Made by a program: the position numbers and the translations under genes
The notes under the pieces: generated by a model
The model's input: only the letters and a program-made list of their open reading frames with translations
Database searches by the model: none
Told to the model about the DNA's origin: nothing
Assembly (NCBI GenBank): GCA_031268615.1
Contig: JAIRWZ010000010.1
Coordinates: 1-13,181 of the forward strand
DNA: 13,181 nt
Direction of reading: 5' to 3'
Origin: Actinomycetes bacterium
GTDB lineage: Bacteria; Actinomycetota; Coriobacteriia; WRKU01; WQUG01
Part shown: positions 1-13,071 of the stretch, piece by piece
How the letters are laid out: each line of letters starts with the position of its first letter
How positions within the stretch are numbered: the stretch's first letter is position 1

Positions 1-889
1 TATCCGTCGGAAGTCCAATGGGCGGAATGAACCCGACAGGGTTATCCGTTACCTCATCACTGGCTTCGTCGGTCCAATTAACGAATTCGTAGTACTCTGC
101 AGCCGTAGCCTCTGACCCGAGCAATTCGCCTGTCGCAGCGCCAGTTGTTTCAGTAGCGCGCGAAACACTACCGCCGATATTCGCCACAACATCGCCGTCG
201 GCGCCCTCGGCACGAAAATCATACTTCACTGTCAAGGCGTTTTCTTCATAATTGGCATATACATTGACAGCTGTCGATTCCTCGCTTGGCGCCATAACCG
301 GAAAAGCGGTTGGTTCAAAAGCTGATTCTGTTCCCACTACCTCATCGTCATCATTTGTCCAGTTCACAAAGTGATATCCCGTCTTTCGGTACGAGTCGGC
401 ATCTATCTCCGCATCGGAAAGATTAGCACCCAGACCGGGATATACGGATTTGCTGGACGACAATAGCGAATCGTCAAATCCATCATAATAGTTGTACACG
501 ATTTCCTGTGGAGCGAAAACGGCGTTATAGGTTGCGGTTGCAGTAAACGATTCAGTCCAAGTTGTTTCTGTCGAGCTCGTCTCAGAACTGGTTAACCAGC
601 CCGAAGTCGTCTCATCGCTAAACCAGCCCACAAAATAGAAATTGGGCGCTGGCGTCGCCACCAGTGTCGTTTCCAGTGTCGCGCCGATAGTGGTAACGGT
701 AGAAGTCGTCACCAGTCCGCTCAAATGTCCACCTAGATAGTCAGTCTGAAGTTCTCCCTCTTCATCTAGGGATACTACCACCGTGTCTACGGTTACGTCT
801 GCCACCGCAAACACGGGGAACAGTACGGATAGCAGCATCGCCACCGCCATAAGCAGTGACACTTTGCGTCTTGCATAAAACTTTTTCAT
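1..889 (-). CDS. Secreted InlB-repeat-like surface protein, C-terminus cut off by window edge
   Basis: Translating the minus strand from the ATG at 889 gives an open frame of 296 codons that leaves the window without a stop. Residues 1 to about 30 form a clear Sec signal peptide: MKKFYARRK, then a hydrophobic run ending VFAVA before DV. The mature part is acidic and rich in Thr, Ser and Val. It contains several short motifs (FYFVGWF, YHFVNWT, YEFVNWT) typical of InlB B-repeat/Listeria-Bacteroides repeats, each preceded by a beta-strand-rich stretch. Such repeats are usually found in exported adhesins or stalks, so a cell-surface role is inferred. A ribosome binding site (AAAGGA, five bases upstream) supports this start. 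It is the last gene of the cluster and follows the RCC1/InlB protein after a 127-base gap. Any anchoring signal or enzymatic domain would lie outside the window. Confidence 0.85.
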   Translation of the reverse strand, partial: MKKFYARRKVSLLMAVAMLLSVLFPVFAVADVTVDTVVVSLDEEGELQTDYLGGHLSGLVTTSTVTTIGATLETTLVATPAPNFYFVGWFSDETTSGWLTSSETSSTETTWTESFTATATYNAVFAPQEIVYNYYDGFDDSLLSSSKSVYPGLGANLSDAEIDADSYRKTGYHFVNWTNDDDEVVGTESAFEPTAFPVMAPSEESTAVNVYANYEENALTVKYDFRAEGADGDVVANIGGSVSRATETTGAATGELLGSEATAAEYYEFVNWTDEASDEVTDNPVGFIPPIGLPTD

Positions 890-1016: not shown

Positions 1017-3269
1017 TTATCCGTATATTGGTGGTTTTTCACACCCGCATCCACAATCACATTTTCCGCAAGGTTTCATTTTCTTGCATACAGGGCATCT
1101 TGGTTCTCTCAGTATTGATTTTTCCCGTTTCACGGTAATCTTATAAATAGACTTCTTTGTCGTATCTTGTGCAATCACCCGTATCTGCACTGTTTTTGAC
1201 TGACCCTTTGCAAGCGCCACCTTTATCTTGCCTTTGGGCAGCTTTTTCCACTTACCCTTCTTGCCCAAACGATACGTCATTTTCGACGAGCCACTTTTGC
1301 GTTTAGGTGTCAGTGTGACTGACTTCTTTCCTGCCGCAATCGTCAGTTTGTATCCGGATTTCTTTGACGCACTAAACCCCGGCTTTACTTTGCCAGACGA
1401 AGTCTTTAACGACTTTATGGTCGATACCGTATTAACCCATTTAGCGGTATAGCGCAGACCCATCACGTCAACTTTACGAGTCGGCTTTGCTTTTTCACTC
1501 TTGCGATACCAACCCACCAGACGATAATTGGTCCGGGATACCTTGGGCAGGGCACCCATTGCCTTGCCTTTCTGAACCCATCCGGTGTTAATGGTCTTCC
1601 CCTGGGAAATAAAGCGCACCGCATAATCCAGGCGCCAGTGAGCGTAAAACGTATACGTTTGTGCCTTGCTGAACGCATACGATGAGGTCAGGCGAGTGCC
1701 TCCTGACACAGCGGTATACCAACCCAGGAAAACATTGCGACTGTCGGCTGGCTTGCTGGTCGGAAAATCTGCCGCAGGGAAAGAAGACAACTTCCCCGGC
1801 ACATAAACCGTCTTATACCGGGACGCTTGCCCATTGCGACCATCAAACTTCACCGTGACAACAGCAGTTGACCAGTGTGCGTACAGGGTGACATTGCGGT
1901 TCACCACATAAGATATGTTCACCTGTGTTCCGCCCGTTGCTGCCGTGAACCATCCTTGAAAGCCGGCATTCGCACGAACGGGTACGGGCAATTCACCCAC
2001 AGCGCGACCTTGCATTACCTGCCGCGCCGCCACTGCTGCGCCGCCCTGCGTATTAAAAGTAACCGTATACTTTGGCAGGGGCGTACCCCACTCTTCTCCC
2101 ACAACCAGCCTTGGGGCTGTGACATTCTCTGTGCCTGCTATCCGTCCCAGATACGTTCCCGACCCCCAGGAATACAGAGTTCCACCGGAGGTTATGGCAG
2201 CCGAAACATTACTGCCCGCAACCGCTGATGCCACACTGCCCACAACACGGATTTGTACCGGTGTGGTCTGTCTGGCTACAGTCGCTCCATTACCGACCTG
2301 CCCGTAACCATTCGCACCCCAACCCCAAAGCGTTCCGTTCGTGCGCACAACAAAGGTGTGAGCCTCCCCGATTGATGCCTGCTTCACCGACCCGGCAGAA
2401 GGTATCAAAAGCTCCGAACCTGGCAGACCGTAATAGCTGGTGGTCGCATTGCCACTTCCCGTTTGGGCGCTTCCGTTATACCCCCAGGTATATAGGTTGT
2501 CAGTTGATCTGGAATTACTAACCCACGCCCCGGTGACAGCCCCCGTCGAGGTGCGGTCACTTAACTCCACCATCGTCCAACCGCTTGCCGACCCTTTGCG
2601 CTGCGGAGAAAAGTACACGACTGTTCCGCCCGCTGTCATCTGCACCCTGCCCCACACCCAGCCAGTCCCATCATTTTTGACCCCGGCAGCACTTTGCCCA
2701 CCAGCCGCAATCGTCATCCAGGTGTTGCTGTCCACTTGCCTGGGCGTCCCCACCAGACCACTGGCAAAGCCATTGCCCAAACCCAGACACCCCGCGGCTG
2801 CGTTACCCCAGGCGTACAGCCTCCCATTCGTTTTGAGTGCCAGAGAAAAATCATATCCGGCGGCAACCATCTTCCAATCAGTATCAGTACCAATGCGTAT
2901 TGGTTGATTCCGACCGCTCGTTGAACCATCGCCCAATTGCCCGAACGCATTGCTTCCCCAGGTCCAGAGGCTGCCGTCCGCTTTAATGGCAAGGGTGTGC
3001 AATCCACCGGCATCCACGTACTTCCAGGCAGAAGTCGAAGCAACCAGCGCCGGCGTCGCCTGCGAGACAGCAGTCGTGCCCAGTCCCAGTTGTCCGGACG
3101 CATTGTTTCCCCAGGTCCAGAGACTGCCGTCCTGTTTCAATGCCACCATGAAATTATCGCCAATAGCCAAATTGCCGGCACTGGAATAGGCAACAGCAAC
3201 TGAAGGAATTGTAAAAAGAACCATGACAACTGCAATAAGAATGGAATATATTCTTTTATGTTTGTTCAC
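1017..3269 (-). CDS. Secreted seven-blade RCC1 propeller protein with InlB-type repeats and Cys-rich tail
   Basis: This 750-residue protein starts with GTG, chosen because AAGGAGG lies six bases upstream; the ATG one base earlier is followed directly by a stop. Residues 1-27 are a Sec signal peptide ending in AVA. Residues about 32-390 carry seven RCC1-type blades, marked by WTWGNN (51), WTWGSN (102), YAWGNA (152), WVWG (204), YTWGYN (260), WGWGAN (315) and YSWGSG (366). Several blades keep the GQLG-type follow-on, so a closed propeller is expected. Three InlB B-repeat-like modules follow (about 401-467, 471-546, 549-611, with GW[FY] and YAHW). A Lys-rich domain at 614-715 resembles the cadherin-like beta sandwich found in similar exported proteins. 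The last 25 residues hold seven cysteines from CPVC to CGC. No LPXTG or hydrophobic anchor is visible. RCC1 propellers usually mediate protein binding, so a surface adhesin or scaffold role is likely but unproven. Confidence 0.9.
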
Positions 3270-3275
3270 ATTAAA

Positions 3276-3282
3276 CCTCCTT
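3276..3282 (-). promoter_or_regulatory. Ribosome binding site deciding a GTG start
   Basis: AAGGAGG on the minus strand lies in the 15-base gap between the upstream kinase stop (TAG, 3285-3287) and the GTG at 3269, with six bases of spacing. It supports the GTG as the true start of the RCC1 protein and shows that the gene can be initiated efficiently without relying only on coupling. Confidence 0.8.
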
Positions 3283-3284
3283 CA

Positions 3285-4961
3285 CTAATGTTTTTCTTTT
3301 GGCCAGCATCTGGGACAAGGTTTTCGGGTCACATTCTTATTGGTAAAGGCAGCGAGACCAGGATTAGGAAAAAGGGATTTTGCTCTGTACAAACTTATTG
3401 CGTAGTATTCTGCCTTGCGGTCAAAGTCTGGACAGGACCATTTATGGTAATACTTCTCGCTCTTCTTGTTTGTTGTAAAAACTACATTCTTGTTGATAGA
3501 ATCTGCTTCAGCTTTCAGTTCAGCATAGTCATCCGGACCCTTCAGCGCTTTGTCACGCTCTGCAACTACTGCGTCATAGCCCTCTTGGTACACAGGTTCC
3601 TTCTCTGTATCAAAAATTGTTACCTTGTCATAGGCATCCTGGGTGACCACAGTGCCCTTTGCATCAGTAATAATCGTTGGCGTAGTTGGCGTAGTTGGAG
3701 GCTCGTAACCAGAACGACCATTCGCCACCAGTACAACAATCAGCGCAATAACCGCAATGCCCGCTATCAGATACGGTATCCACTGACCAAAGCGTTTCGT
3801 CCCGCGCGCTTCCACGTTCGGTTCCGGCACGGTTTCTGTCACCGATACCATCGGTTCCGGAGGCAATTCCGGCGGTATCGATATGACGGTTGGTTCCGAC
3901 AAGGCTTCAGACGTCGGTTCACTCGTCGGCTCCGGCACTGCTGGCGCCGTAACTTCCCCAGCTGCTGCCCCGGCAAAGTCAGCAAAACTGCGCTGTGGCT
4001 TGACCTCCACTGCTTTTCGCCTACCTCCCCGCCTTCCGGCACCGGCACGCGCACCTGCGCCCACATCCGCCGGCTCCGCCGTCAACCATGCCGCCTCCCA
4101 TGCCGCAAGCATCGCGCCGGCGTCACGGTAACGGTCCATGCGCTCTTTACTCAAAGCCCGCAAAATCACCGCTGCCAATGCCGCAGCGCGCCCCACATCA
4201 ACCTCCGGCATGTTCGCAATTCCGCCGCTGCCGGCAAACACAGCCAAATCCGGCGTGGGCTCATGCACAATGCGATGAATCACGGTCGCGTACTGCGTCG
4301 AAGTCGCCTCTCCAAAAGGATTCGCCCCTGCCAGCATCTCGTATGCAATCGCGCCCAACGCGAACACATCACTGCCCACATCCACCGTCTCGCCACGAAT
4401 CTGTTCAGGCGACATATAGGCGGGTGTCCCCATCATCGTGCCCGCCTGCGTCAGAGTAGACGAGTCCTCCACATGGGCAATCCCAAAATCCGCCAGCTTG
4501 ATACGCTCATCCGAGGTCACGAATATGTTTTCTGGCTTCAAATCACGATGGACAATCCCCCGTTTATGCACATAAGCGACCGCCTCCAGCAGCTGTTTCA
4601 TCAGGTCATACACCTGCGCTACCGGCATCGACTGCCCGTCCAGCTGGTTCAGCAGCTCGCGCAAGGTCGGACCCTCCACCAGTTCCATCACAAACACCGG
4701 GCGATCGTCATACACGTCCGCCGCATACACCGACACAATGCCTGCATGCGTCAGCCGCGCCGCCGCACGCGCCTCCCGCACAAACCGTGCGTTAAACTGG
4801 CTCAGCTTCTCCGCGTCTACCCCGCTTGGCAACTTCGGCTCTTTCAGCGCCACCTCGCGCTCCAGCGCGCCGTCCCAGGCACGCCACACCTTCGCCATCG
4901 AACCCTCGCCCAACAGCGCCCTCAGTTCAAAGGGTCCAATGTGATCGTAATTCTGTGTCAT
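3285..4961 (-). CDS. Membrane Ser/Thr protein kinase with extracytoplasmic Cys/His domain
   Basis: This 558-residue protein has an N-terminal Hanks-type kinase domain (about 10-290). Catalytic motifs are intact: glycine loop GEGSMAKV (18-25), VALK with Lys40, HRD at 138-140 with LKPEN, DFG at 158-160, and GTPAYMSPE ending at 186. It should phosphorylate Ser/Thr in the cytoplasm. A basic, then Pro/Glu/Thr-rich linker (about 300-390) leads to one membrane segment (about 395-414). A short outer part follows with a PTTPTT run, a charged helical stretch (about 455-490), and a C-terminal motif H506-x3-C510 with C549-P-R-C552. This arrangement resembles the small Ada-like metal-binding modules (YHxxxC...PCxxC) found in secreted proteins; it contains no PASTA repeats. 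The start overlaps the upstream stop as ATGA and has GAGGG just before it. The tail may sense a metal, redox state or ligand, or be structural; this is inference. Confidence 0.93.
   Translation of the reverse strand: MTQNYDHIGPFELRALLGEGSMAKVWRAWDGALEREVALKEPKLPSGVDAEKLSQFNARFVREARAAARLTHAGIVSVYAADVYDDRPVFVMELVEGPTLRELLNQLDGQSMPVAQVYDLMKQLLEAVAYVHKRGIVHRDLKPENIFVTSDERIKLADFGIAHVEDSSTLTQAGTMMGTPAYMSPEQIRGETVDVGSDVFALGAIAYEMLAGANPFGEATSTQYATVIHRIVHEPTPDLAVFAGSGGIANMPEVDVGRAAALAAVILRALSKERMDRYRDAGAMLAAWEAAWLTAEPADVGAGARAGAGRRGGRRKAVEVKPQRSFADFAGAAAGEVTAPAVPEPTSEPTSEALSEPTVISIPPELPPEPMVSVTETVPEPNVEARGTKRFGQWIPYLIAGIAVIALIVVLVANGRSGYEPPTTPTTPTIITDAKGTVVTQDAYDKVTIFDTEKEPVYQEGYDAVVAERDKALKGPDDYAELKAEADSINKNVVFTTNKKSEKYYHKWSCPDFDRKAEYYAISLYRAKSLFPNPGLAAFTNKNVTRKPCPRCWPKEKH
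3681..3698 (-). repeat. Two copies of a 9-bp unit coding for PTT
   Basis: The plus strand reads cgtagttgg twice in direct tandem, preceded by a partial copy. In the kinase frame it encodes the PTTPTT run just outside the membrane segment. Being a multiple of three, changes in copy number would alter linker length without shifting the frame. Confidence 0.6.
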
Positions 4962-7621
4962 AATCCCTCTTTCACCTCTTCGGCAGTATCATTTTTGAAG
5001 TGAGTACGTCCAGACCTTTTAGTCGCTGCATAGATACCGATGACCGCGCATATGCCAATCGCTGCCACCAGCAAAAGCAGTCCTGTACTGTCATCAGCCA
5101 TCCCACCACCAGTAACCACCACAGTCGCCACCATTGAAGTTTCCGCCTCAGGGGCAATTTCTCTTCCTGTTGCCTCGCTGATTATTTTTTCCTCATTCTG
5201 GATGAGCTGTTTCATTTCTTTATAGGTCGGTTCTTCCGGCATACTTGCCGTATCTATCTCGGGTGTAGAAAGAATTTCGGCACTGGCACCAACAGAGCCC
5301 CCGACAAATACCAAATTATTCCAATCATTATGTGACTCCAGCACACTGAATACCTTTCCATATGCCGTATACCCGCCTGAGGTCCACTCCCGTCCCAAAT
5401 CCATTTTGATAACATCTTCTGTATCACCATCACCGTTGTAATCGACACCGTGCCCGGGCAATATCCATATTGGTTTGCCGTTATATGTCTTTGTTTTTTC
5501 ATCATATCCAGGCCATTTCCTATTTTTTGAGATTTGGGTAATGAATCCTCTGCTCTCAGTCACATTGTCTAAATCAATCCCCTCGGTTTCTGACAACTTT
5601 TTTTCAACAAGAGGAGGCATCTCATAACTTGAATAATCCAGTAGGAAACCTGTGCTTTCCCCTAATTTTGAACTATAGGGAATCCCACTGAGAAAAAGAT
5701 AGTTCATAATGCTAAGATAATTAGGTTTATACAAAGTATGATCTGGATTGTCATCAATAGAGCGCCCTCCATGCCCTAATCCGAGCGTATGACCCAGTTC
5801 ATGCATGAAAGTCGCCGATATAGCCCTATCTCGTACACTGGAAGAAATATCTTTATCGTATATAAAATGTGCAGTAGAAACCCAAAAGTATTGGCTGACG
5901 TTACCATTAGCCAACCCCATGGTCTTACCAGAAGAATTGTCGAGCATAAGCGCATGGCGAAATACTCTCTGCCGCGATTCACTAAGATTATTTTTTACCA
6001 GCTCTCCCCATTCGACATCACTCGGTTCTCCCTCAAAATAAGCAACCGTATTGCTCTCTGAAAGCCCTCCCCATTTCTTCCCCGTAACAAAATCAATCGA
6101 ATCAGAACCCGCATCAATGTGAAGGTTAATGCCATGCTTTTTGAAAGCCTCGTAGACCATGCGTAATTGGCGTTGGGTCGGCGCAAGACTGCGACCTAAT
6201 CCATCAACCATGTAATCAACTTCTAAGAAAACATCTTTCACGTTAATATCTGCGCCCATCTCTTTGAGAGAAAGTCCGGCAATGCCATTGAGCTCCCACT
6301 CATCAGGTAATCCATCCAGATCTGTATCAACCATCTCTATGATAGAGTCGGCAAACGATAGCAGGCTTTCCCAAAAATCAGAAGCATTTATATCAGCAAG
6401 AATACCCCCAGTTCCGTCCGCCAAAGGCCGGTAGGTGTCGTATAATTCTGTAGTAGTCACTACTGACGTCGTAATTTTTTGATTCGCATGTAATGTCAGG
6501 GCATCAACCATTTCATCCATATCACTAATTTCAAAGTTGTTCTCTGTCTTGTATCCAGCATCGGTTAAAACAATCGCGAATTTACTCGCTCTGACATTCC
6601 ACGGAATACCTTCAGAGTCCGGCTCACTTTGCAAAATGCCGAGGGCATCGAGAACCGTTTCAGGGTCATCTCCGCCACCATCGACAACAATACTGTCCAA
6701 AGTCTCGATTCCTTCTTCAGCAGAAGAGTGCCAAAATGTGTCTCCGTTGAACAACGGCTTCGTGGAATCCTCTCCGTCAGCTGTTATATCGCGATACTCT
6801 ATAAATCCAACCCTTAGCGAAATACCGCGATCTCCCAAATACCGCATAAATGAAGCCAGATTACTTTTCACATTGTTTATTTCATCGCCCATCGATCCTG
6901 TGGTATCAATTACGAATACCAAGTCGACGGGATTGCTCACTCCAACAGACGATTTTGCCGCAGAATATAATCTTGACGTACTTTCACTTTCGGATATGGC
7001 ACTATTTAATACCAGATTCTCTTCCGCATAGTCAATCGCAGAATTTGTTGCAATCATTTCTATAATCTGACCAAGTTCATCAAGATTATAATGTGCTGCA
7101 AAAAGTACACGATATTGTTCCAATGCCTCTTGATATCCAACAATTTCACCATCGTATTGGGCAGCCAATTTTTCGACTTCCTCGCGAGTGGTTCCCTCTT
7201 TCACGGTAATCAGCAACTCGTTGTCAATGTACTGAATACCCGTGTCGGGATCAGTCTTTATGTTTTCTGGTGCGGAACGATAGAACGACAGTGTTTCGTC
7301 ATAGACTACCTGGCGGCTGGCTGTGGTTTCACTGCTTTCAACGCTCGCAGTACCACTTGTCTCGGTGCTGCCTCCACCACCCCCGCCTCCTCCTCCGCCG
7401 GAAGCGATAAGCACTCCGATGATTACGAGCGCCAGCAGCAAGCCTATGGCAGCATAGAGCCATGTCTGTTTGGACGCGCCTGCCTTGCTCTCTTCCGGTG
7501 AGTCTTTGCCAGTTGTAACAGTGGAATGCTGCGAGACATCGTCAGCCACCAACGCAGCGCCGCAATTCAGACAAATCGTGGCACCGTCAAAGTTTTCCTG
7601 TTGGCAGTGGGGACATTTCAT
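4958..7621 (-). CDS. Membrane-anchored zinc ribbon-vWA-metzincin metalloprotease
   Basis: This 887-residue protein combines several modules. Residues 1-24 form a zinc ribbon (CPHC at 3-6, CLNC at 17-20), expected in the cytoplasm. A membrane segment (about 53-73) and ten glycines (75-84) follow. Residues about 130-205 resemble the I9/fervidolysin-type prodomain of subtilases (ELLITV...VGYQEALEQYRV...IDYAEENLVL), although no subtilase is present. A vWA domain (about 232-430) has the metal site DTTGS (239-243), GGGDDPE and D354. A calcium-repeat-like motif DTDLDGLPDEWE (432-443) precedes a metzincin protease domain with HELGHTLGLGH (607-617) and the Met-turn SIMNY (637-641). DYNGDGD (727-733) may bind calcium. 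A second membrane segment (about 846-866) and a short charged tail end the protein. The catalytic region should lie outside the membrane. It overlaps both neighbours as ATGA. The substrate is unknown; nearby surface proteins or the envelope partners are candidates. Confidence 0.92.
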   Translation of the reverse strand: MKCPHCQQENFDGATICLNCGAALVADDVSQHSTVTTGKDSPEESKAGASKQTWLYAAIGLLLALVIIGVLIASGGGGGGGGGGSTETSGTASVESSETTASRQVVYDETLSFYRSAPENIKTDPDTGIQYIDNELLITVKEGTTREEVEKLAAQYDGEIVGYQEALEQYRVLFAAHYNLDELGQIIEMIATNSAIDYAEENLVLNSAISESESTSRLYSAAKSSVGVSNPVDLVFVIDTTGSMGDEINNVKSNLASFMRYLGDRGISLRVGFIEYRDITADGEDSTKPLFNGDTFWHSSAEEGIETLDSIVVDGGGDDPETVLDALGILQSEPDSEGIPWNVRASKFAIVLTDAGYKTENNFEISDMDEMVDALTLHANQKITTSVVTTTELYDTYRPLADGTGGILADINASDFWESLLSFADSIIEMVDTDLDGLPDEWELNGIAGLSLKEMGADINVKDVFLEVDYMVDGLGRSLAPTQRQLRMVYEAFKKHGINLHIDAGSDSIDFVTGKKWGGLSESNTVAYFEGEPSDVEWGELVKNNLSESRQRVFRHALMLDNSSGKTMGLANGNVSQYFWVSTAHFIYDKDISSSVRDRAISATFMHELGHTLGLGHGGRSIDDNPDHTLYKPNYLSIMNYLFLSGIPYSSKLGESTGFLLDYSSYEMPPLVEKKLSETEGIDLDNVTESRGFITQISKNRKWPGYDEKTKTYNGKPIWILPGHGVDYNGDGDTEDVIKMDLGREWTSGGYTAYGKVFSVLESHNDWNNLVFVGGSVGASAEILSTPEIDTASMPEEPTYKEMKQLIQNEEKIISEATGREIAPEAETSMVATVVVTGGGMADDSTGLLLLVAAIGICAVIGIYAATKRSGRTHFKNDTAEEVKEGL
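7370..7399 (-). repeat. Ten-glycine codon run forming a linker
   Basis: Ten consecutive GGN codons (mixed GGC, GGA, GGG, GGT) encode a polyglycine linker immediately outside the first membrane segment of the vWA-metzincin protein. The mixed codon use makes simple slippage less likely than a pure repeat would. Confidence 0.75.
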
Positions 7622-9069
7622 TGCAAATATCCAATCTGAATGATAGTTTCACCGACACGTAGCCAGTCACCGGGACTGAGCACGGTGGGATCGACGAGGG
7701 TTGCATTATTGACCAGCGTGCCGTTGCGGCTGCCCAAATCAGTCGCACACAGCATGCCATCAGCATTGGAATCCAGTCGGACGTGCTGGCGGCTGATAAG
7801 CCCATCAGAAAAGGTGGTGCTACCCACGGAATAGTCCCTGCCAATAATGACGGGCAGATCAACGGCTTCGGTACTGACCGCGCCATCCGGAGTGGTAATA
7901 GTCAGACAAAGACCGGGTCCGCGCCCTGCGTATCGCGCAGGTGAACTGGCAGGGGTGGACGTACTCACTCCTAATTCTGCTGCAGGCTTTGGCGCGGCAG
8001 GTGTCAAGCCTTTTAGCACCAGCCAGATTCCTGCGCCGCCCGCCGCAATAACCATCGCTGCTATCAGCAGTCCCGCTTGTCCGCTGGCAAACGCCAGTAT
8101 CAGCAGCAGCAACGCTGCCGCGCCGCCAGCAGCCAGCCAGCCGGTGGCCGATTTTGTCGGCTTGGGGACGCTGATTTGGAAGTCCTCGGTTTGGGTCGGC
8201 TCAACCTGCTGCAGGGCGAAGGGACGCCCGCGCTTCTGAGAAAGAAAGTGATACTGTTCGCGTTCAAAGGCTTCGTTCAGCGCGCGCCGGTACTGTTCTC
8301 CCGTCGGCCAACGGCGATCCGGCGCCTGGCGTAAACCGCGCGCAATAACAGCACTGATAGCCGGCGCCACACTGAAAAGCGGCAGGATTTCAGAGGAGCG
8401 GGTGCGCAGTATGATTTCGTCGCGCGTCGCCCCCTCGGTCGCGCCGAAGGGATTCGCCAAGGTCAGCATTTCATAGGCTACCACGCTGAAACTGAAGAGG
8501 TCAGCGCGTGCGTCTGCGCTTTCACCGGCAATCTGTTCAGGCGCCATGTAGCCGGGGCTGCCCACCACAATGCGCTCCTCCCCGCCGTCGGAGCTGACCA
8601 CATGCGCCACACCGAAGTCGGTAAGTTTCGCGTAACCATTGGCGGTGATGAAAATGTTATCAGGTTTAACGTCACGGTGCACAATGCCCTGACCATGCGC
8701 ATAAGCGAGCGCGTCTAAGAGCTGGAACCATATCGTACGTATCTGGTCGGGCGTGAGCTGACGTTGGTCAATGAGATGCGCAAGCGTAGCGCCTTCCAAA
8801 AGCTCCATCACGATGGCGAAGCGTCCGTCAAAGACCCCCGCCTCATAGACCGTAATGATGTTGGGATGATTCAGGCGCGCGACGGCATGACCTTCCTGCA
8901 AAAAACGTGCGTTGAGTTCGTCTATGAGGTCTTGGGGCATGCCATCTGCGTGCAGCGGTTCCTTGATGGCGACTTCACGCTGTAGGCGGGGATCCCAGGC
9001 GCGCCAGACAACTGCCATCGCGCCGCGACCCAGCTCTCCACGCAGTTCGTATTGTCCAAAGGTGGGCAT
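7618..9069 (-). CDS. Ser/Thr protein kinase with two membrane segments and C-terminal FHA domain
   Basis: This 483-residue protein starts with a complete Hanks-type kinase domain (about 7-270): glycine loop GRGAMAVV (14-21), VAIK with Lys36, HRD at 131-133 with VKPDN, DFG at 151-153, and GYMAPE ending at 178. Two closely spaced hydrophobic segments (about 311-328 and 332-353) form a hairpin that returns the chain to the cytoplasm. An FHA domain follows (about 387-483) with GR (410-411), SRQH (426-429) and DLGSRNGT (444-451), the conserved phosphothreonine-binding pattern. The protein can therefore both write and read phosphothreonine on the same membrane face, and may bind its own or a partner's phosphorylated sites. 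It overlaps the PP2C stop by one base (TGATG) and the next start by four (ATGA), linking kinase and phosphatase supply. GAGG lies ten bases upstream of the start. Confidence 0.95.
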   Translation of the reverse strand: MPTFGQYELRGELGRGAMAVVWRAWDPRLQREVAIKEPLHADGMPQDLIDELNARFLQEGHAVARLNHPNIITVYEAGVFDGRFAIVMELLEGATLAHLIDQRQLTPDQIRTIWFQLLDALAYAHGQGIVHRDVKPDNIFITANGYAKLTDFGVAHVVSSDGGEERIVVGSPGYMAPEQIAGESADARADLFSFSVVAYEMLTLANPFGATEGATRDEIILRTRSSEILPLFSVAPAISAVIARGLRQAPDRRWPTGEQYRRALNEAFEREQYHFLSQKRGRPFALQQVEPTQTEDFQISVPKPTKSATGWLAAGGAAALLLLILAFASGQAGLLIAAMVIAAGGAGIWLVLKGLTPAAPKPAAELGVSTSTPASSPARYAGRGPGLCLTITTPDGAVSTEAVDLPVIIGRDYSVGSTTFSDGLISRQHVRLDSNADGMLCATDLGSRNGTLVNNATLVDPTVLSPGDWLRVGETIIQIGYLQ

Positions 9070-10307
9070 CAGCGAGCCGCCTCGTTTTTTATCTCGGGCG
9101 TAGATTCCTGGCCTTCTATTGCTTGCACTTTTTTCCAGTCATTTTTCTGGAGCCAGATTGAACCCAGTTCCCCTTTACCGGAGTGTTCGTTAAAGTACGG
9201 AATCAGAATCTTTTGTATGTCTTTCTTTTTGACTTCCTTTAGGTCATTCCTAAATTCTTTTTCGCTTTCCAGCTGCTCGTCAGCTTTATCAAGGTCTCTT
9301 TGGAGGTCTCGAATTGTTTCTGAAGCCTCCCTTGACAGTTTTTCCCCTTCTGATTCTGGAGAAATACCAGGCATTTCGGGTGAGACAAAAGGATTTCCCA
9401 TAAATGTCAGGGTCAGCAACATCGCAATTACTGTCGCGAGTAAAACCAGCCACTGCCTTTTGACCGGGCGACTCCACCAGGTCTTGAAACGTTCGAAGGG
9501 TGGTGTTTGTGTCTGTATTTGTGTTTGCGGCACCTGTGCCTTGAAGCTGTCCCAGTCTTCTGCTGCCAACAAAACGGTACAGTTATCGTCAGTATCACTT
9601 GACAGCGCCTTGGAGGTCAAGGCAGTCGCGGCTTCTTCCGGTGTTTTAGCGGTGGCAAGAGTTCGTGCCATCTGCTTTGCGCTGACCACCGTAGAGACGC
9701 CATCGCTGCAGAGTAGAACAACATCACCCGGCGCTAACGTGGCTTCATCAATTTCTGCTTCCTCACCATTGAACCCCAGCGCTCTTTCAATAACATTACG
9801 TTTCGGGTGTTTCTGCGCCTGCGCTTCAGTCAGCGTGCCCTCAGCTAAAAGGCGTCCCACCACAGAATGATCCGTCGTGATTTGTTCGGCTTTCCCACGG
9901 TGTACACGATAGGCACGGCTGTCACCCACGTGCGCAATCCAGGCTTTGGTGGGACTGAGAAAAGCACCAACGAAAGTTGCGCCCATGTTGGCTTTGTCCA
10001 GACGCCTGGTTTCTGAGAGAATAGCCTCGTTGGCACGTTGCACGATTTCTTGCAGCGCCTGGGCAACATCCAGTTTAATTTGGTTATCCTGGACCATATC
10101 CAGCAAAGCCTCAACGTAGTCGCGTGCTGTGTCACAGGCAATTTTGCTGGCAACCTCTCCCCCCTGATAACCACCCATGCCATCGCTCACTACTATAAAA
10201 GCAGTAATGTCAGCGACAAAAAGGTTGCCCCCGGACAGGTCTTTGTAATAGTAGTTATCTTCGTTATGAGACCGGGGTCCGGCAATGGAGTCAGCCGCAA
10301 GTTTCAT
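9069..10307 (-). CDS. Membrane-anchored PP2C-family protein phosphatase
   Basis: This 412-residue protein has a PP2C (PPM/Stp1-like) domain at about 1-250 with all usual metal-ligand motifs: HNED (14-17), SDGMGGYQGGE (41-51), GDSRAY (128-133), DHS (146-148), SDGV (201-204) and DDN (240-242). It should remove phosphate from Ser/Thr in the cytoplasm and oppose the two kinases of the cluster. A Gln/Thr-rich linker (261-270) leads to one membrane segment (about 285-303). The outer part (about 318-363) is strongly charged with heptad-like spacing and is probably a coiled coil, followed by about 45 residues of unknown fold. A membrane-tethered PP2C with an outer domain is less common than the soluble form and suggests regulation or placement from outside. 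The ATG directly follows the upstream TAA with no gap; GGAGAGG lies just upstream. Confidence 0.95.
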   Translation of the reverse strand: MKLAADSIAGPRSHNEDNYYYKDLSGGNLFVADITAFIVVSDGMGGYQGGEVASKIACDTARDYVEALLDMVQDNQIKLDVAQALQEIVQRANEAILSETRRLDKANMGATFVGAFLSPTKAWIAHVGDSRAYRVHRGKAEQITTDHSVVGRLLAEGTLTEAQAQKHPKRNVIERALGFNGEEAEIDEATLAPGDVVLLCSDGVSTVVSAKQMARTLATAKTPEEAATALTSKALSSDTDDNCTVLLAAEDWDSFKAQVPQTQIQTQTPPFERFKTWWSRPVKRQWLVLLATVIAMLLTLTFMGNPFVSPEMPGISPESEGEKLSREASETIRDLQRDLDKADEQLESEKEFRNDLKEVKKKDIQKILIPYFNEHSGKGELGSIWLQKNDWKKVQAIEGQESTPEIKNEAAR

Positions 10308-12110
10308 TTATCCGACCTCTCCTGCGCCACGGGTCTTTCTGCCGGAAAGTACAATAGTCAGTATCAACATGAAACCCAATGCAATACCGGCTAACATGAG
10401 AAATTGCATTGAGTGGTCAGGGGCGATGCTGCGGGCTTGTGGCGCCGCAGTTAAAACGATTTGTTCAGGAGTAAAACTCTGATAGATAGTGATGAAATTG
10501 TCGCTTAGACTTTTCGTATCTCCTGACTGATAGAAGTTTCCACCAGTCGCTTGAGCGATTTTCTTGAGAAACTTTACGTCTGCTTGCCCGGCTCCGGCAA
10601 AAGCCAGCGTATCTATTGATATGCCGGCATCTGCCGCCTTTTGTACCGGACCCGCCAAAAGTGCTTTGCCAGTCTTTCCCCGAGTAGGGACCCCGTCAGA
10701 AAGCAAAAGGATGTGTTTGTCGGCACACAGAGGTACGCTGTCAAGTATCTTGAGAGCAGCGTTCAACCCCTTTTCCATGTCGGTGTTACCGGCAGCATGT
10801 ATGTCAGATACCGCAGAGATTGAAGTTTTATTTGCGTCGGTGGCAACTGATTCTATACGCGTGTTAAAACCTAAGACTTCTACCTGTTCGGGAAAAGTCA
10901 GCGGCTCTGCTTTGTGCGCTGCTACGGCTTTAAGAAAGTCTGTAGCAGCAGTTTTGGCAGCAGCCAGTTTTGTATCACGCTTGTCCAGTTTCTGCAGCAT
11001 AGAGCCTGACGTGTCGAGGGTCAGGACGGAAGCCAGCGCGGTTATGGGGGCGGGCGCGTTGAACCATTGCCTGTAGAATTCCCGAACAGCAGATTTGACT
11101 TCTGCCGAACTGGCATAAGAATCGATAGCCGTCAGTCGCTCCACCAGTTTTGCGTCTACCGCGTCAGTTTTTTGACCTCCCCATTTGGTCGCAGTCTCCC
11201 ACTGTGCTGACAAATCAATCGCCTGTGAAATCGTGGCGCGTGCCTGCACTTCCGTCTGCTGCGCACAGATATTTTCCGGGATTTCCATGTCCCCCGGTTC
11301 AAGAGCGCCATCAGTCGATCCAAAGCCTATATCACCCACAACACCCCTAACATTGAGAGTTTTGATAATGGCAGGAATGGGTCGGGCGTCTATCTCTGTG
11401 AGCAATGCGCTGTTCGGCACCACGTCCCCCCGGTCAAAACCGGCGGCAGTGGTCAGCCTGTTCCAGAGTTTCAAGCGTGGGTAGCGTTCCTGCACGCGAT
11501 AACCCCCATGAGGCGTACCCAGAAACACCAAACCGACCACGTCGGCTCTGTCTGATTGACGCGTTGTAGCGAGATCGGCAACATAGCGCCGAGTCTGTAG
11601 CCCGGTCACACCTACGCTGACAATGACGGTTTTCGGACAGGCGCCTGATTTTGCTATTTTGTCCAACGCCCAGACAATGTCTTCTGCCGTAATGGGCTCT
11701 GCAGCACTACTGCCCAGGAGAAAAGTTGCAGGTTGCGTCGCGGCAGAGGTCGCTGCAGACGATGCAGATGTGGACGTACTCGCTTCGCCTTGCCACAAGG
11801 ACGGCGCGAGAGCAGTTTCCAGCGTGAGATGAGCGTCGCTTGCAAGCGTTGTCGCGTCTGCTCCCAACCAGTGGAAGCGAAAGAGATCGAGGTCGCCAAG
11901 GGACGCATCGACCAGCAGCACCGAGGGCGTTTGCGACAGGGCGGACAGAGGTGCAGCGGCTGTCGCTGGTGCGCGTAGAACCAGCATCGGCACCAGGGTC
12001 AGAGCACAGACCAGAGCACAGACCAGAACCAGGATTGCCAAACGCTGGCAGGCGCGGCTATGGGACGGCGCTGGCAGTGCCGATGGCATATTGATGACGT
12101 TGCTGCGGAT
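10308..12110 (-). CDS. Membrane protein with nucleophile-less lipase-like domain and vWA domain; start uncertain
   Basis: The open frame reaches back to a TTG at 12155 (615 codons, numbering used here), which lacks a ribosome binding site and overlaps the FHA gene by 32 bases. GGAGGT at 12117-12122 instead points to codon 16, an ATC (12110); the first ATG is codon 23 (12089). A membrane segment lies at about 38-60. Residues about 75-295 look like an alpha/beta hydrolase of the lipase type: VFLGTPHGG (210-218) and a late STDG (280-283) match lipase landmarks, but the expected GHSxGG elbow reads SVGVTGLQ (180-187), with Gly in place of Ser. A vWA domain (about 374-565) has a complete metal site: DTSGS (381-385), T458 and D487. 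A second membrane segment (about 584-603) precedes a short basic tail. The folded domains should face outside. The hydrolase part may now bind a lipid or protein rather than cut it. Confidence 0.85.
   Translation of the reverse strand: MRSNVINMPSALPAPSHSRACQRLAILVLVCALVCALTLVPMLVLRAPATAAAPLSALSQTPSVLLVDASLGDLDLFRFHWLGADATTLASDAHLTLETALAPSLWQGEASTSTSASSAATSAATQPATFLLGSSAAEPITAEDIVWALDKIAKSGACPKTVIVSVGVTGLQTRRYVADLATTRQSDRADVVGLVFLGTPHGGYRVQERYPRLKLWNRLTTAAGFDRGDVVPNSALLTEIDARPIPAIIKTLNVRGVVGDIGFGSTDGALEPGDMEIPENICAQQTEVQARATISQAIDLSAQWETATKWGGQKTDAVDAKLVERLTAIDSYASSAEVKSAVREFYRQWFNAPAPITALASVLTLDTSGSMLQKLDKRDTKLAAAKTAATDFLKAVAAHKAEPLTFPEQVEVLGFNTRIESVATDANKTSISAVSDIHAAGNTDMEKGLNAALKILDSVPLCADKHILLLSDGVPTRGKTGKALLAGPVQKAADAGISIDTLAFAGAGQADVKFLKKIAQATGGNFYQSGDTKSLSDNFITIYQSFTPEQIVLTAAPQARSIAPDHSMQFLMLAGIALGFMLILTIVLSGRKTRGAGEVG
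12001..12024 (-). repeat. Perfect 12-bp tandem duplication in a membrane segment
   Basis: The plus strand reads agagcacagacc twice in direct tandem. In the vWA/lipase-like protein this encodes a repeated Val-Cys-Ala-Leu within the N-terminal membrane helix. The unit is a multiple of three, so it lengthens the helix by four residues without a frameshift. Confidence 0.75.
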
Positions 12111-12116
12111 GCCGGT

Positions 12117-12122
12117 ACCTCC
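12117..12122 (-). promoter_or_regulatory. Ribosome binding site without a canonical start
   Basis: GGAGGT lies directly after the FHA gene stop (TAA, 12124-12126). At ideal spacing (seven bases) the in-frame codon is ATC (12108-12110). The nearest upstream candidates (TTG 12155, GTG 12146, TTG 12140) precede this site, and the first ATG is 28 bases downstream. It therefore suggests either a rare ATC start or a coupled start at 12089. Confidence 0.6.
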
Positions 12123-12123
12123 G

Positions 12124-13071
12124 TTATTTCGTGAACGCAAAGACACTGTCGCCAATACGAATCTGGTCGCCGGTGTTCAGATATTGCTGCCCGCTAATGG
12201 CGACTTCGTTGACGTAGGTGCTGTTAGCGCTGCCCAGGTCAATGACAGCCCAATTGCCACCGTTATAGAGCAGTTTGGCGTGTTCGCGCGAGGCTTTGCC
12301 ATCGGACAGAACGATGAAACTGGAACTGTCGCGACCCAATTTGATATCCTGCGCAGGGAGGTTCCATGCCTGACCAGTGTTCGCGCCGGCGATGGCACGT
12401 AGGCTGGCACCGCTGGCAGGACGTTCGATGATGGTGGCTGCGGTCGGCGCCTTTTTGTCGAAAATGGTAGCGGCACCGGCGTTGGCGGACGGCGCAGAGG
12501 CAGGACGGGACATAGGGGCGGGAACCGAGTTGGCAGAAACGGAGGCGGAGGTACTCTGGCTGGCAACACCGCCGATGCCGCGTTCCAGTTCTGCGAAACG
12601 GTTGTTGAGGGCACCCATGAATTCAGTCGACGGACGCGCACGCTGGACCGTGCTGGCATACACAATAACCGCTACGATAGATACAATGACACCCAACAAG
12701 GCGACTAGCGCAATAGTTGGACCATAGCCGCCCAACAGCCACCTGACGTTCCAGTTGATGGCGCCGGGATAAATGATTGGCGGAATTTCTCCTGTCAGCC
12801 GCGCTAAGTTATTAACGCCATCGAAAGTACCGGTGTAGCGGAAAATAAAAGCCGGCGCAATAAGAAACACACCAACAATGGAGAGAATGCGTGAAGTCAG
12901 CGCCTTCTCACCCTTATTTTTATTGGTGGAATCGAAGAAAATCCAGATGGCAATGCCCAGTGTCGCGAGCAAGAATAAATACATACCCCACTCGAAGAGC
13001 CAGCCGTAGTTTTGAACTTTTGCGAGAGCATCTTCTAATGCTTTCATAGTGTACGGAAATGACCCAGTCAT
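12124..13071 (-). CDS. Three-pass membrane protein with C-terminal FHA domain
   Basis: This 315-residue protein has three predicted membrane segments (about 24-47, 61-78, 116-139), with a positively charged flank after the third that places the C-terminal half in the cytoplasm. A Ser/Ala/Pro-rich linker (about 145-225) holds two similar motifs, ATIFDKK (201-207) and ATIIERP (212-218), whose threonines could be phosphorylated. An FHA domain (about 225-315) keeps GR (246-247), SREH (261-264) and DLGSANST (278-285), expected to bind phosphothreonine peptides. It probably acts as the membrane hub that reads or gathers kinase targets. It is the first gene of the visible cluster. The ATG at 13071 has AAAGGA nine bases upstream; an in-frame ATG at codon 9 is possible but lacks a comparable site. 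Confidence 0.92.
   Translation of the reverse strand: MTGSFPYTMKALEDALAKVQNYGWLFEWGMYLFLLATLGIAIWIFFDSTNKNKGEKALTSRILSIVGVFLIAPAFIFRYTGTFDGVNNLARLTGEIPPIIYPGAINWNVRWLLGGYGPTIALVALLGVIVSIVAVIVYASTVQRARPSTEFMGALNNRFAELERGIGGVASQSTSASVSANSVPAPMSRPASAPSANAGAATIFDKKAPTAATIIERPASGASLRAIAGANTGQAWNLPAQDIKLGRDSSSFIVLSDGKASREHAKLLYNGGNWAVIDLGSANSTYVNEVAISGQQYLNTGDQIRIGDSVFAFTK

Follow-up and report, generated by a model that had tools for sequence, protein, structure and literature searches.

A gene cluster found in a 13,181-bp stretch of DNA (hereafter, the window) from a bacterium of the class Coriobacteriia rather probably represents one copy of a system for membrane phospho-signalling that is conserved within this class and apparently undescribed, and whose function we infer from its parts. 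It would belong to the systems of the kinase-phosphatase-FHA kind and may be distinguished by an unusual extracytoplasmic, cartridge-like output. Its core, made of a membrane FHA protein (g1), a double-anchored protein with a vWA domain (g2) and a PP2C phosphatase (g3), stands beside transmembrane (TM) Ser/Thr kinases forming a group distinct from the housekeeping kinases. In seven of the 12 related loci, the stretch fetched also encodes a second vWA protein anchored at both ends, and most of these proteins have a head that is enzyme-like or of a binding type. As the window spans the whole of contig C70 of the draft genome G000 (1.07 Mb, 157 contigs, 62% complete), the cluster may continue beyond either end.

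Results

All eight open reading frames of the window lie on the minus strand and are numbered in the order of transcription, from g1 to g8. The first gene of the core, g1 (12124-13071), encodes a three-TM protein with a cytoplasmic FHA domain (Pfam FHA, 3e-16). It is followed by g2 (10308-12155), a pseudo-alpha/beta-hydrolase joined to a vWA domain and anchored by TM segments at residues 41-59 and 585-603, which is the most specific marker of the system, and by g3 (9069-10307), a PP2C phosphatase with a C-terminal TM segment and a short ectodomain (Pfam PP2C_2, 9e-18; the NCBIfam Stp1-type match, 5e-60, is under its cut-off). Downstream are g4 (7618-9069), a Ser/Thr kinase with a TM hairpin and an FHA domain (Pfam Pkinase 8e-47, FHA 5e-12), g5 (4958-7621), in which Pfam (vWA, 2e-10), motifs, relatives and hydropathy delineate a zinc ribbon, a TM segment, a propeptide-like domain, a vWA domain, a metzincin and a second TM segment, and g6 (3285-4961), a Ser/Thr kinase with a TM segment and an ectodomain giving no Pfam match (Pkinase, 1e-47). 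The junctions from g1 to g7 are overlapping, abutting or near-zero: 32 bp of overlap between g1 and g2, given the TTG start of g2, direct abutment of g2 and g3, overlaps of 1 bp (g3/g4), 4 bp (g4/g5) and 4 bp (g5/g6), and a gap of 15 bp between g6 and g7; 127 bp separate g7 from g8. Hydropathy places TM segments in all of g1-g6, the one in g3 being weak, and a TM anchor at both ends of g2 and of g5, a topology from which their vWA domains would be on the extracytoplasmic side. The original prediction of seven consecutive tightly joined genes on one strand, with the domains named above, was confirmed by the reading frames, Pfam, hydropathy and the motifs of g5.

Conservation of the cluster was assessed with a profile of g2 (built from the window and genome G257) against 396 genomes of the class at a cut-off of 1e-12. 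It matched 14 genomes, 13 of which, the window included, hold g2 across most of its length; the fourteenth, G748, has only the second type of vWA protein. The holders are spread over eight of the 153 genera and over six families, and the neighbourhood is retained in 12 further genomes from seven other genera, where kinase, PP2C and FHA genes co-occur with g2, a co-occurrence that the original prediction had named as support. In these related loci PP2C always follows g2 (12 of 12), g1 precedes it in 11 (the contig of the remaining one, L143, begins at g2), kinases are found within the fetched stretch in 11 (L137 stops at a contig end) and full-length kinase-FHA relatives of g4 in five. The vWA domain of g2 (10692-11027, minus strand; Pfam VWA_2, 6e-8) carries the metal ion-dependent adhesion site (MIDAS) DTSGS at residue 381, and its DxSGS form is invariant in 13 of 13 sequences. 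At the nucleophile position of the hydrolase-type head, glycine is seen in 12 of these 13 and serine in L143 (by eye, alignment A3), so the g2 head lacks the nucleophile-elbow serine by which alpha/beta-hydrolases are recognised. In-frame stops scored in the g2 matches of G697, G287 and G158 are the terminal stops of the gene itself. The g1 relative of G710 (L140, about 2440-3393) has an early in-frame stop within the matched span, which indicates a broken gene or an assembly error. A genome of the same family, G002, contains a second set consisting of kinase, small membrane protein and PP2C (L070, 96-2850); by BLAST the membrane protein is weakly similar to the TM portion of g1 (E 6e-5), and Pfam finds no FHA domain in it.

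The relatives did not come to light by every route. Single-sequence pattern scans of genome contigs with g2 and g5 gave nothing, while the whole-genome search did find relatives, probably since such patterns miss distant ones; an initial g2 search of 79 relatives appeared negative; and locus L108 surfaced through a weak g5 match in G257. Nine other loci that we inspected (L099-L103, L106, L107, L109, L110) do not contain the cluster. In a search of 396 genomes of the phylum with the g2 profile, no match outside the window spanned the hydrolase part, and in 21 further genomes the match was confined to the vWA region; G399, a genome of another class, stood out among these for its two loci with vWA-FHA proteins of the kind described below. 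Phage or plasmid origin was rejected: no g2 relative was found in plasmids, the g1 and g2 alignments matched none of the viral contigs, and g5 gave partial matches only against plasmids. Trees of RodA-PBP and of g1+g2+PP2C both separate G086, G108 and G088 from the remaining holders, G000 among them (97/97, 100/100), and split the six f4 genomes identically; they differ on G257 and G188 as sisters, and the root of the g1+g2+PP2C tree was chosen by us. We read these patterns as mostly vertical inheritance of the cluster, presumably with many losses.

The kinases of the cluster appear as a group of their own. In a quick tree of 52 catalytic domains (53 were gathered by BLAST and one duplicate was removed), for which the program warned of long branches, 35 cluster kinases, those of the window included, together with one from G399, split from 16 housekeeping kinases with a support of 80 in the Shimodaira-Hasegawa-like approximate likelihood-ratio test. 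The cluster label needs two changes on this tree and the housekeeping label one, versus about 14 when labels are shuffled. The catalytic Lys, HRD and DFG are intact in 35 of these 36 kinases, g4 and g6 among them, the exception being the G399 kinase. G257 has six kinases besides its kinase-FHA protein, with catalytic domains 83-96% identical and ectodomains 18-39% identical, some pairs over only 14 aligned residues, and some of the ectodomains share a family (BofC_C in three). Third-codon-position identity of the catalytic domains is 0.49-0.81; recent gene conversion of these kinases is therefore not favoured, because third positions have diverged, which suggests that selection, and not recent copying, keeps their catalytic domains alike. 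Ectodomains of 13 kinases from relatives, a subset of those found, were scanned and matched Beta-lactamase2 (2), BofC_C (3), C-type lectin (2), F5/8-type (3), DUF6273 (1) and YARHG (1), with DUF6287 in one under the cut-off; two kinases had no ectodomain match and two had two kinds. The extracellular tail of g6 (within 3285-3722) ends in YYH...C...PCPRC and has no Pfam match; by eye, we take this pattern to resemble a small metal-binding domain.

A candidate substrate of these kinases is g1 itself. Its FHA domain (12151-12342, minus strand; PF00498, residues 244-307) is directly preceded by twin T-x-x-D/E candidate phosphorylation sites, T202 and T213 (12424-12474, minus strand). In an alignment of 11 sequences, drawn from the 13 loci without L143, which has no g1, and L140, whose g1 frame is broken, g1 is 42-56% identical to its 10 relatives. 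T202, A211, A212 and T213 are invariant amid a mostly variable linker, and three residues after either threonine all 11 sequences have D or E. A preference for pT-x-x-D is known among FHA domains. The closest relatives of this FHA domain in the PDB are OdhI and GarA, including an entry named Rv1827 pThr 22, and g1 shares with them the combination of a related FHA domain and conserved threonines immediately N-terminal to it. The GarA/OdhI motif in that position is ETTS (PMC8546545), so g1 differs in having T-x-x-D/E repeats in its place, as well as in being membrane-bound. The twin sites thus recall the GarA/OdhI switches and can be considered putative phospho-sites.

In the related loci, too, a vWA protein anchored at both ends occupies the slot before later kinases, and its head is often of hydrolase type. 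According to alignment A5 (11 rows), these second vWA proteins share a chassis of vWA domain, beta-sandwich and TM segment, whose vWA part matches many vWA proteins in the PDB and whose beta-sandwich part matches the C-terminal part of subtilisin-like proteases. The heads placed on it vary: over the Pfam cut-off are GDSL (L135, L137), a PGAP1-type alpha/beta hydrolase (L141) and CWB2 (L142); under it are GDSL (L134), Lipase_2 (L144) and C25 (L108, L145); the head of L133 is caspase-like by eye only. An FHA tail is present on five of the 11 aligned proteins: those of L141, L142 and L144, which terminate in a cytoplasmic FHA domain, and two from G399. At its two loci (L157 and L158) G399 has vWA-TM-zinc ribbon-FHA proteins, TM-FHA proteins and kinases, one of the loci also encoding a PP2C with PASTA repeats. 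Of its two chassis proteins with FHA tails, one bears a PHP-type head (PHP_C over the cut-off) and the other has no recognised head. It is the only genome with the chassis among 31 of its class.

In the window this slot is occupied by g5, an analogue whose homology to the chassis is not proven. Its metzincin region (residues 428-779; 5285-6340, minus strand) has both hallmarks of these proteases, the HExxHxxGxxH motif as HELGHTLGLGH at residue 607 and a Met-turn as IMNY at 638, and five proteins that share the HExxH motif and MNY are 28-34% identical to g5 across 292-419 aligned positions; the Pfam match is weak (Reprolysin_3, 0.0017, under the cut-off), and that of the zinc ribbon is also under the cut-off. 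The region is 34% identical over 380 positions to locus L091 (649-3747, minus strand) of G468, another genome of the phylum, a fusion of RCC1 repeats and a metzincin with an N-terminal TM segment or signal, which brings together in one protein the types of domain found separately in g7 and g5. G245 has a relative of the N-terminal third of g5 (residues 1-302, E 1e-16) and no kinase match across its 19.9-kb stretch. CLCA-type proteins also unite a zinc protease and a vWA domain in one surface protein, and the matches of the vWA profile in the PDB include a CLCA vWA; the comparison is limited to this domain.

Two further genes of the window encode surface-type proteins. Pfam (RCC1, List_Bact_rpt) and hydropathy describe g7 (1017-3269, minus strand) as an RCC1/InlB-repeat protein with an N-terminal TM segment or signal, for which BLAST gave no counterpart in the stretches of the relatives; g8 (2-889, minus strand; Pfam Flg_new_2, 8e-10) is an InlB-type repeat protein truncated by the contig end, and its membership of the cluster is doubtful. 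The proposal that two vWA proteins mark the neighbourhood held for g2 and not for the vWA-metzincin, as no full-length relative of g5 was found among 296 genomes of the class. Nor do the metzincin and the RCC1/InlB protein turn out to be conserved parts, since the second vWA proteins of the relatives mostly have a different head and g7 stands alone. Judged by these comparisons, the signalling core is real and conserved, and the metzincin and RCC1 parts are local.

The surroundings of the cluster were compared using 24 N-anchored neighbours from loci of the class and 10 from unrelated class loci, neither set drawn randomly. Thirteen of the 24 are of peptidoglycan type (Beta-lactamase2 5, GH3 3, amidase 3, VanY 1, YkuD 1), versus one of the 10 controls (YkuD; one more is a transglutaminase), Fisher p 0.024. 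The remaining neighbours comprise M28 (2), a transglutaminase, a ChW/PKD surface protein, DUF6273 (1) and six with no function-bearing match. This composition suggests a cell-wall setting in the relatives rather than proteolysis in particular.

Discussion

Several of our results weigh against the existence of one coherent system. The cluster is patchy, as g2 was found at 1e-12 in none of the eight genomes of the same family (59-94% complete). No second vWA protein is seen in the fetched stretch of five of the 12 related loci (L136, L138, L139, L140 and L143; G086, the genome of L143, has one on a different contig), and L136 and L138 show one kinase only, ending at its TM segment. The likeness of g5 to the chassis (G257) is confined to the C-terminal TM segment (BLAST E 5e-5, 32 residues), and several head assignments sit under the Pfam cut-off. 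The enrichment of peptidoglycan-type neighbours is weak and its control small, with both sets non-random; addition of three G399 neighbours without such domains (13/27) brings p to 0.056.

It would be logical to ask whether the locus is an arm duplicated from the housekeeping FhaA/FhaB-PP2C-RodA-PBP-PknB operon of growth control, serving peptidoglycan homeostasis with extra sensors, because the building blocks are the same and many neighbour enzymes in the relatives are of peptidoglycan-acting types. The housekeeping operon (kinase, FHA, FHA, PP2C, a gene of about 930 amino acids, kinase) is present in the stretches of seven relatives (L069, L071-L074, L076, L077; one has an uncalled FHA frame), and in G000 its end, a RodA-PBP fusion and a PASTA kinase by Pfam, is on contig C71 (L068), which makes the window a second, separate set. 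Neither RodA/PBP nor a PASTA-type PknB is in the window, RodA/PBP is not among the cluster proteins scanned in relatives, the vWA proteins have no counterpart in the housekeeping stretches, and cluster kinases fall in a group separate from both housekeeping ones at the support given above; we consider this origin unlikely. A local assembly of unrelated membrane genes, where the metzincin and RCC1 genes are read through from a signalling operon, would account for the lack of full counterparts of g5, g7 and g8 in related loci and for the GC content of the window, 52.2% versus 55.5% and 56.2% in two other contigs of G000. For g7 and g8 such a reading is plausible; for the locus as a whole it is improbable, given the 4-bp overlaps on both sides of g5 and the similar occupancy of its slot in relatives by a double-anchored vWA protein whose head is often of hydrolase type. 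As for a conflict or defence system, the PADLOC kinase models PD-T4-6 and mad6 match g4 and g6, and GAP1-N2 systems contain kinase-PP2C-vWA sets (PMC7159879). The PADLOC matches, however, concern kinases only, with none for the other six window proteins at 0.01; none of the window proteins is a GAP1, a nuclease or an AAA protein; the heads and ectodomains appear to be extracytoplasmic; and the core tree roughly tracks that of RodA-PBP, unlike a mobile defence island, so that we give this explanation hardly any credit.

A regulator of secretion, in the form of a threonine-phosphorylation module of type VII (T7SSc/T7SSd-like) or type VI-like kind that is distant or degenerate and has its ATPase elsewhere in the genome, deserves comparison with the known systems. 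In the threonine pathway of the type VI secretion system (T6SS), with PpkA, PppA and Fha1, a TM kinase, a PP2C and an FHA reader are encoded together, as here, and PpkA is described as having an extracellular vWA domain with a sensor role (PMC3224232). In T7SSc a vWA protein and a PPM phosphatase accompany a TM kinase, while T7SSd, reported from Olsenella, has FHA domains on its ATPase (PMC11217815); the cluster thus shares the TM kinase with both, the PPM phosphatase and vWA component with T7SSc and the FHA domains with T7SSd, as these are described there. In the same class, L079 (G033, 2031-17153), which resembles a type VII-like locus and is distinct from the window, carries FtsK, AAA, FHA, PP2C and two kinases. 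Unlike the T6SS pathway, the cluster places its vWA domains on proteins of their own, which are anchored at both ends and combine the vWA with hydrolase-type domains; it often has several kinases, and secretion genes are lacking among the scanned proteins, where FtsK and AAA are equally absent; T6SS structural genes were found neither in the window nor among those proteins, whole genomes having been left unscanned for Tss families. The vWA protein of T7SSc, TscE, is described as cytoplasmic (PMC11217815), whereas the domains here have flanking TM segments. Among 14 draft genomes tested (the 13 g2 holders, with G000 62% complete, and G399), six have a single FtsK_SpoIIIE match, three of them class members 93-99% complete, and it follows that a type VII ATPase seems not required; type VII secretion was rejected as a requirement on this ground. 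The claim that no secretion locus explains the genes stands insofar as a dedicated FtsK/EssC seems unneeded; the other eight genomes have further FtsK_SpoIIIE matches. Altogether, a secretion regulator is very improbable. In TerY-P triads vWA, PP2C and kinase genes are neighbours. TerD (PF02342) is absent from all 14 genomes and present in two of 14 control ones, and the vWA domains of the cluster, unlike those of TerY-P, look extracytoplasmic; a Ter island was rejected with regard to TerD, in agreement with the original prediction. Its suggestion of an undescribed system also fits an open-access full-text search, where no paper, by title or beginning of abstract among the best matches listed, describes this cluster, which is not a proof of novelty.

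Returning to the membrane phospho-signalling system, we propose that kinases with exchangeable ectodomains would sense cell-wall or surface ligands, and that, through the catalytic domain they have in common, they may phosphorylate g1 at its twin T-x-x-D/E sites, and perhaps other partners too. Readers of this mark would be the FHA domains in g1, in g4 and, in some relatives, in the second vWA protein; PP2C would erase it. The outcome may be the assembly or activity of an extracytoplasmic vWA complex, whose hydrolase head, a metzincin protease in G000, would act on the envelope or on surface proteins. A bolder version, which we advance as a tentative possibility, is that a phosphothreonine on the cytoplasmic side, once recognised by FHA domains, would gate a hydrolase outside the cell by way of the vWA stalk, ectodomains and heads being exchangeable cartridges on a conserved chassis. 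This would be an inside-out control comparable to that of integrins, by which each species might tune what is sensed and what is cut at its surface.

Arn proteins are soluble regulators of motility. In Sulfolobus, the FHA protein ArnA pairs with ArnB, a vWA protein phosphorylated by Ser/Thr kinases, and the pairing is reported to survive mutation of the known sites (PMC6509490). The cluster resembles this module in FHA-vWA pairing, PDB entry 8s05 being matched by both our vWA and FHA profiles, and differs in that its vWA domains appear to lie outside the membrane.

If the proposed mechanism is true, bacterial phospho-signalling would reach extracellular enzymes with no secretion system or transcription factor in the cluster, and a single locus would offer a predicted twin phospho-site, its reader, kinases with the same catalytic domain and different sensors, and surface hydrolases at one locus position. 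The pairing of FHA with vWA, reminiscent of the type VI pathway and of the Arn module of archaea, suggests that threonine phosphorylation may have been coupled to vWA proteins recurrently.

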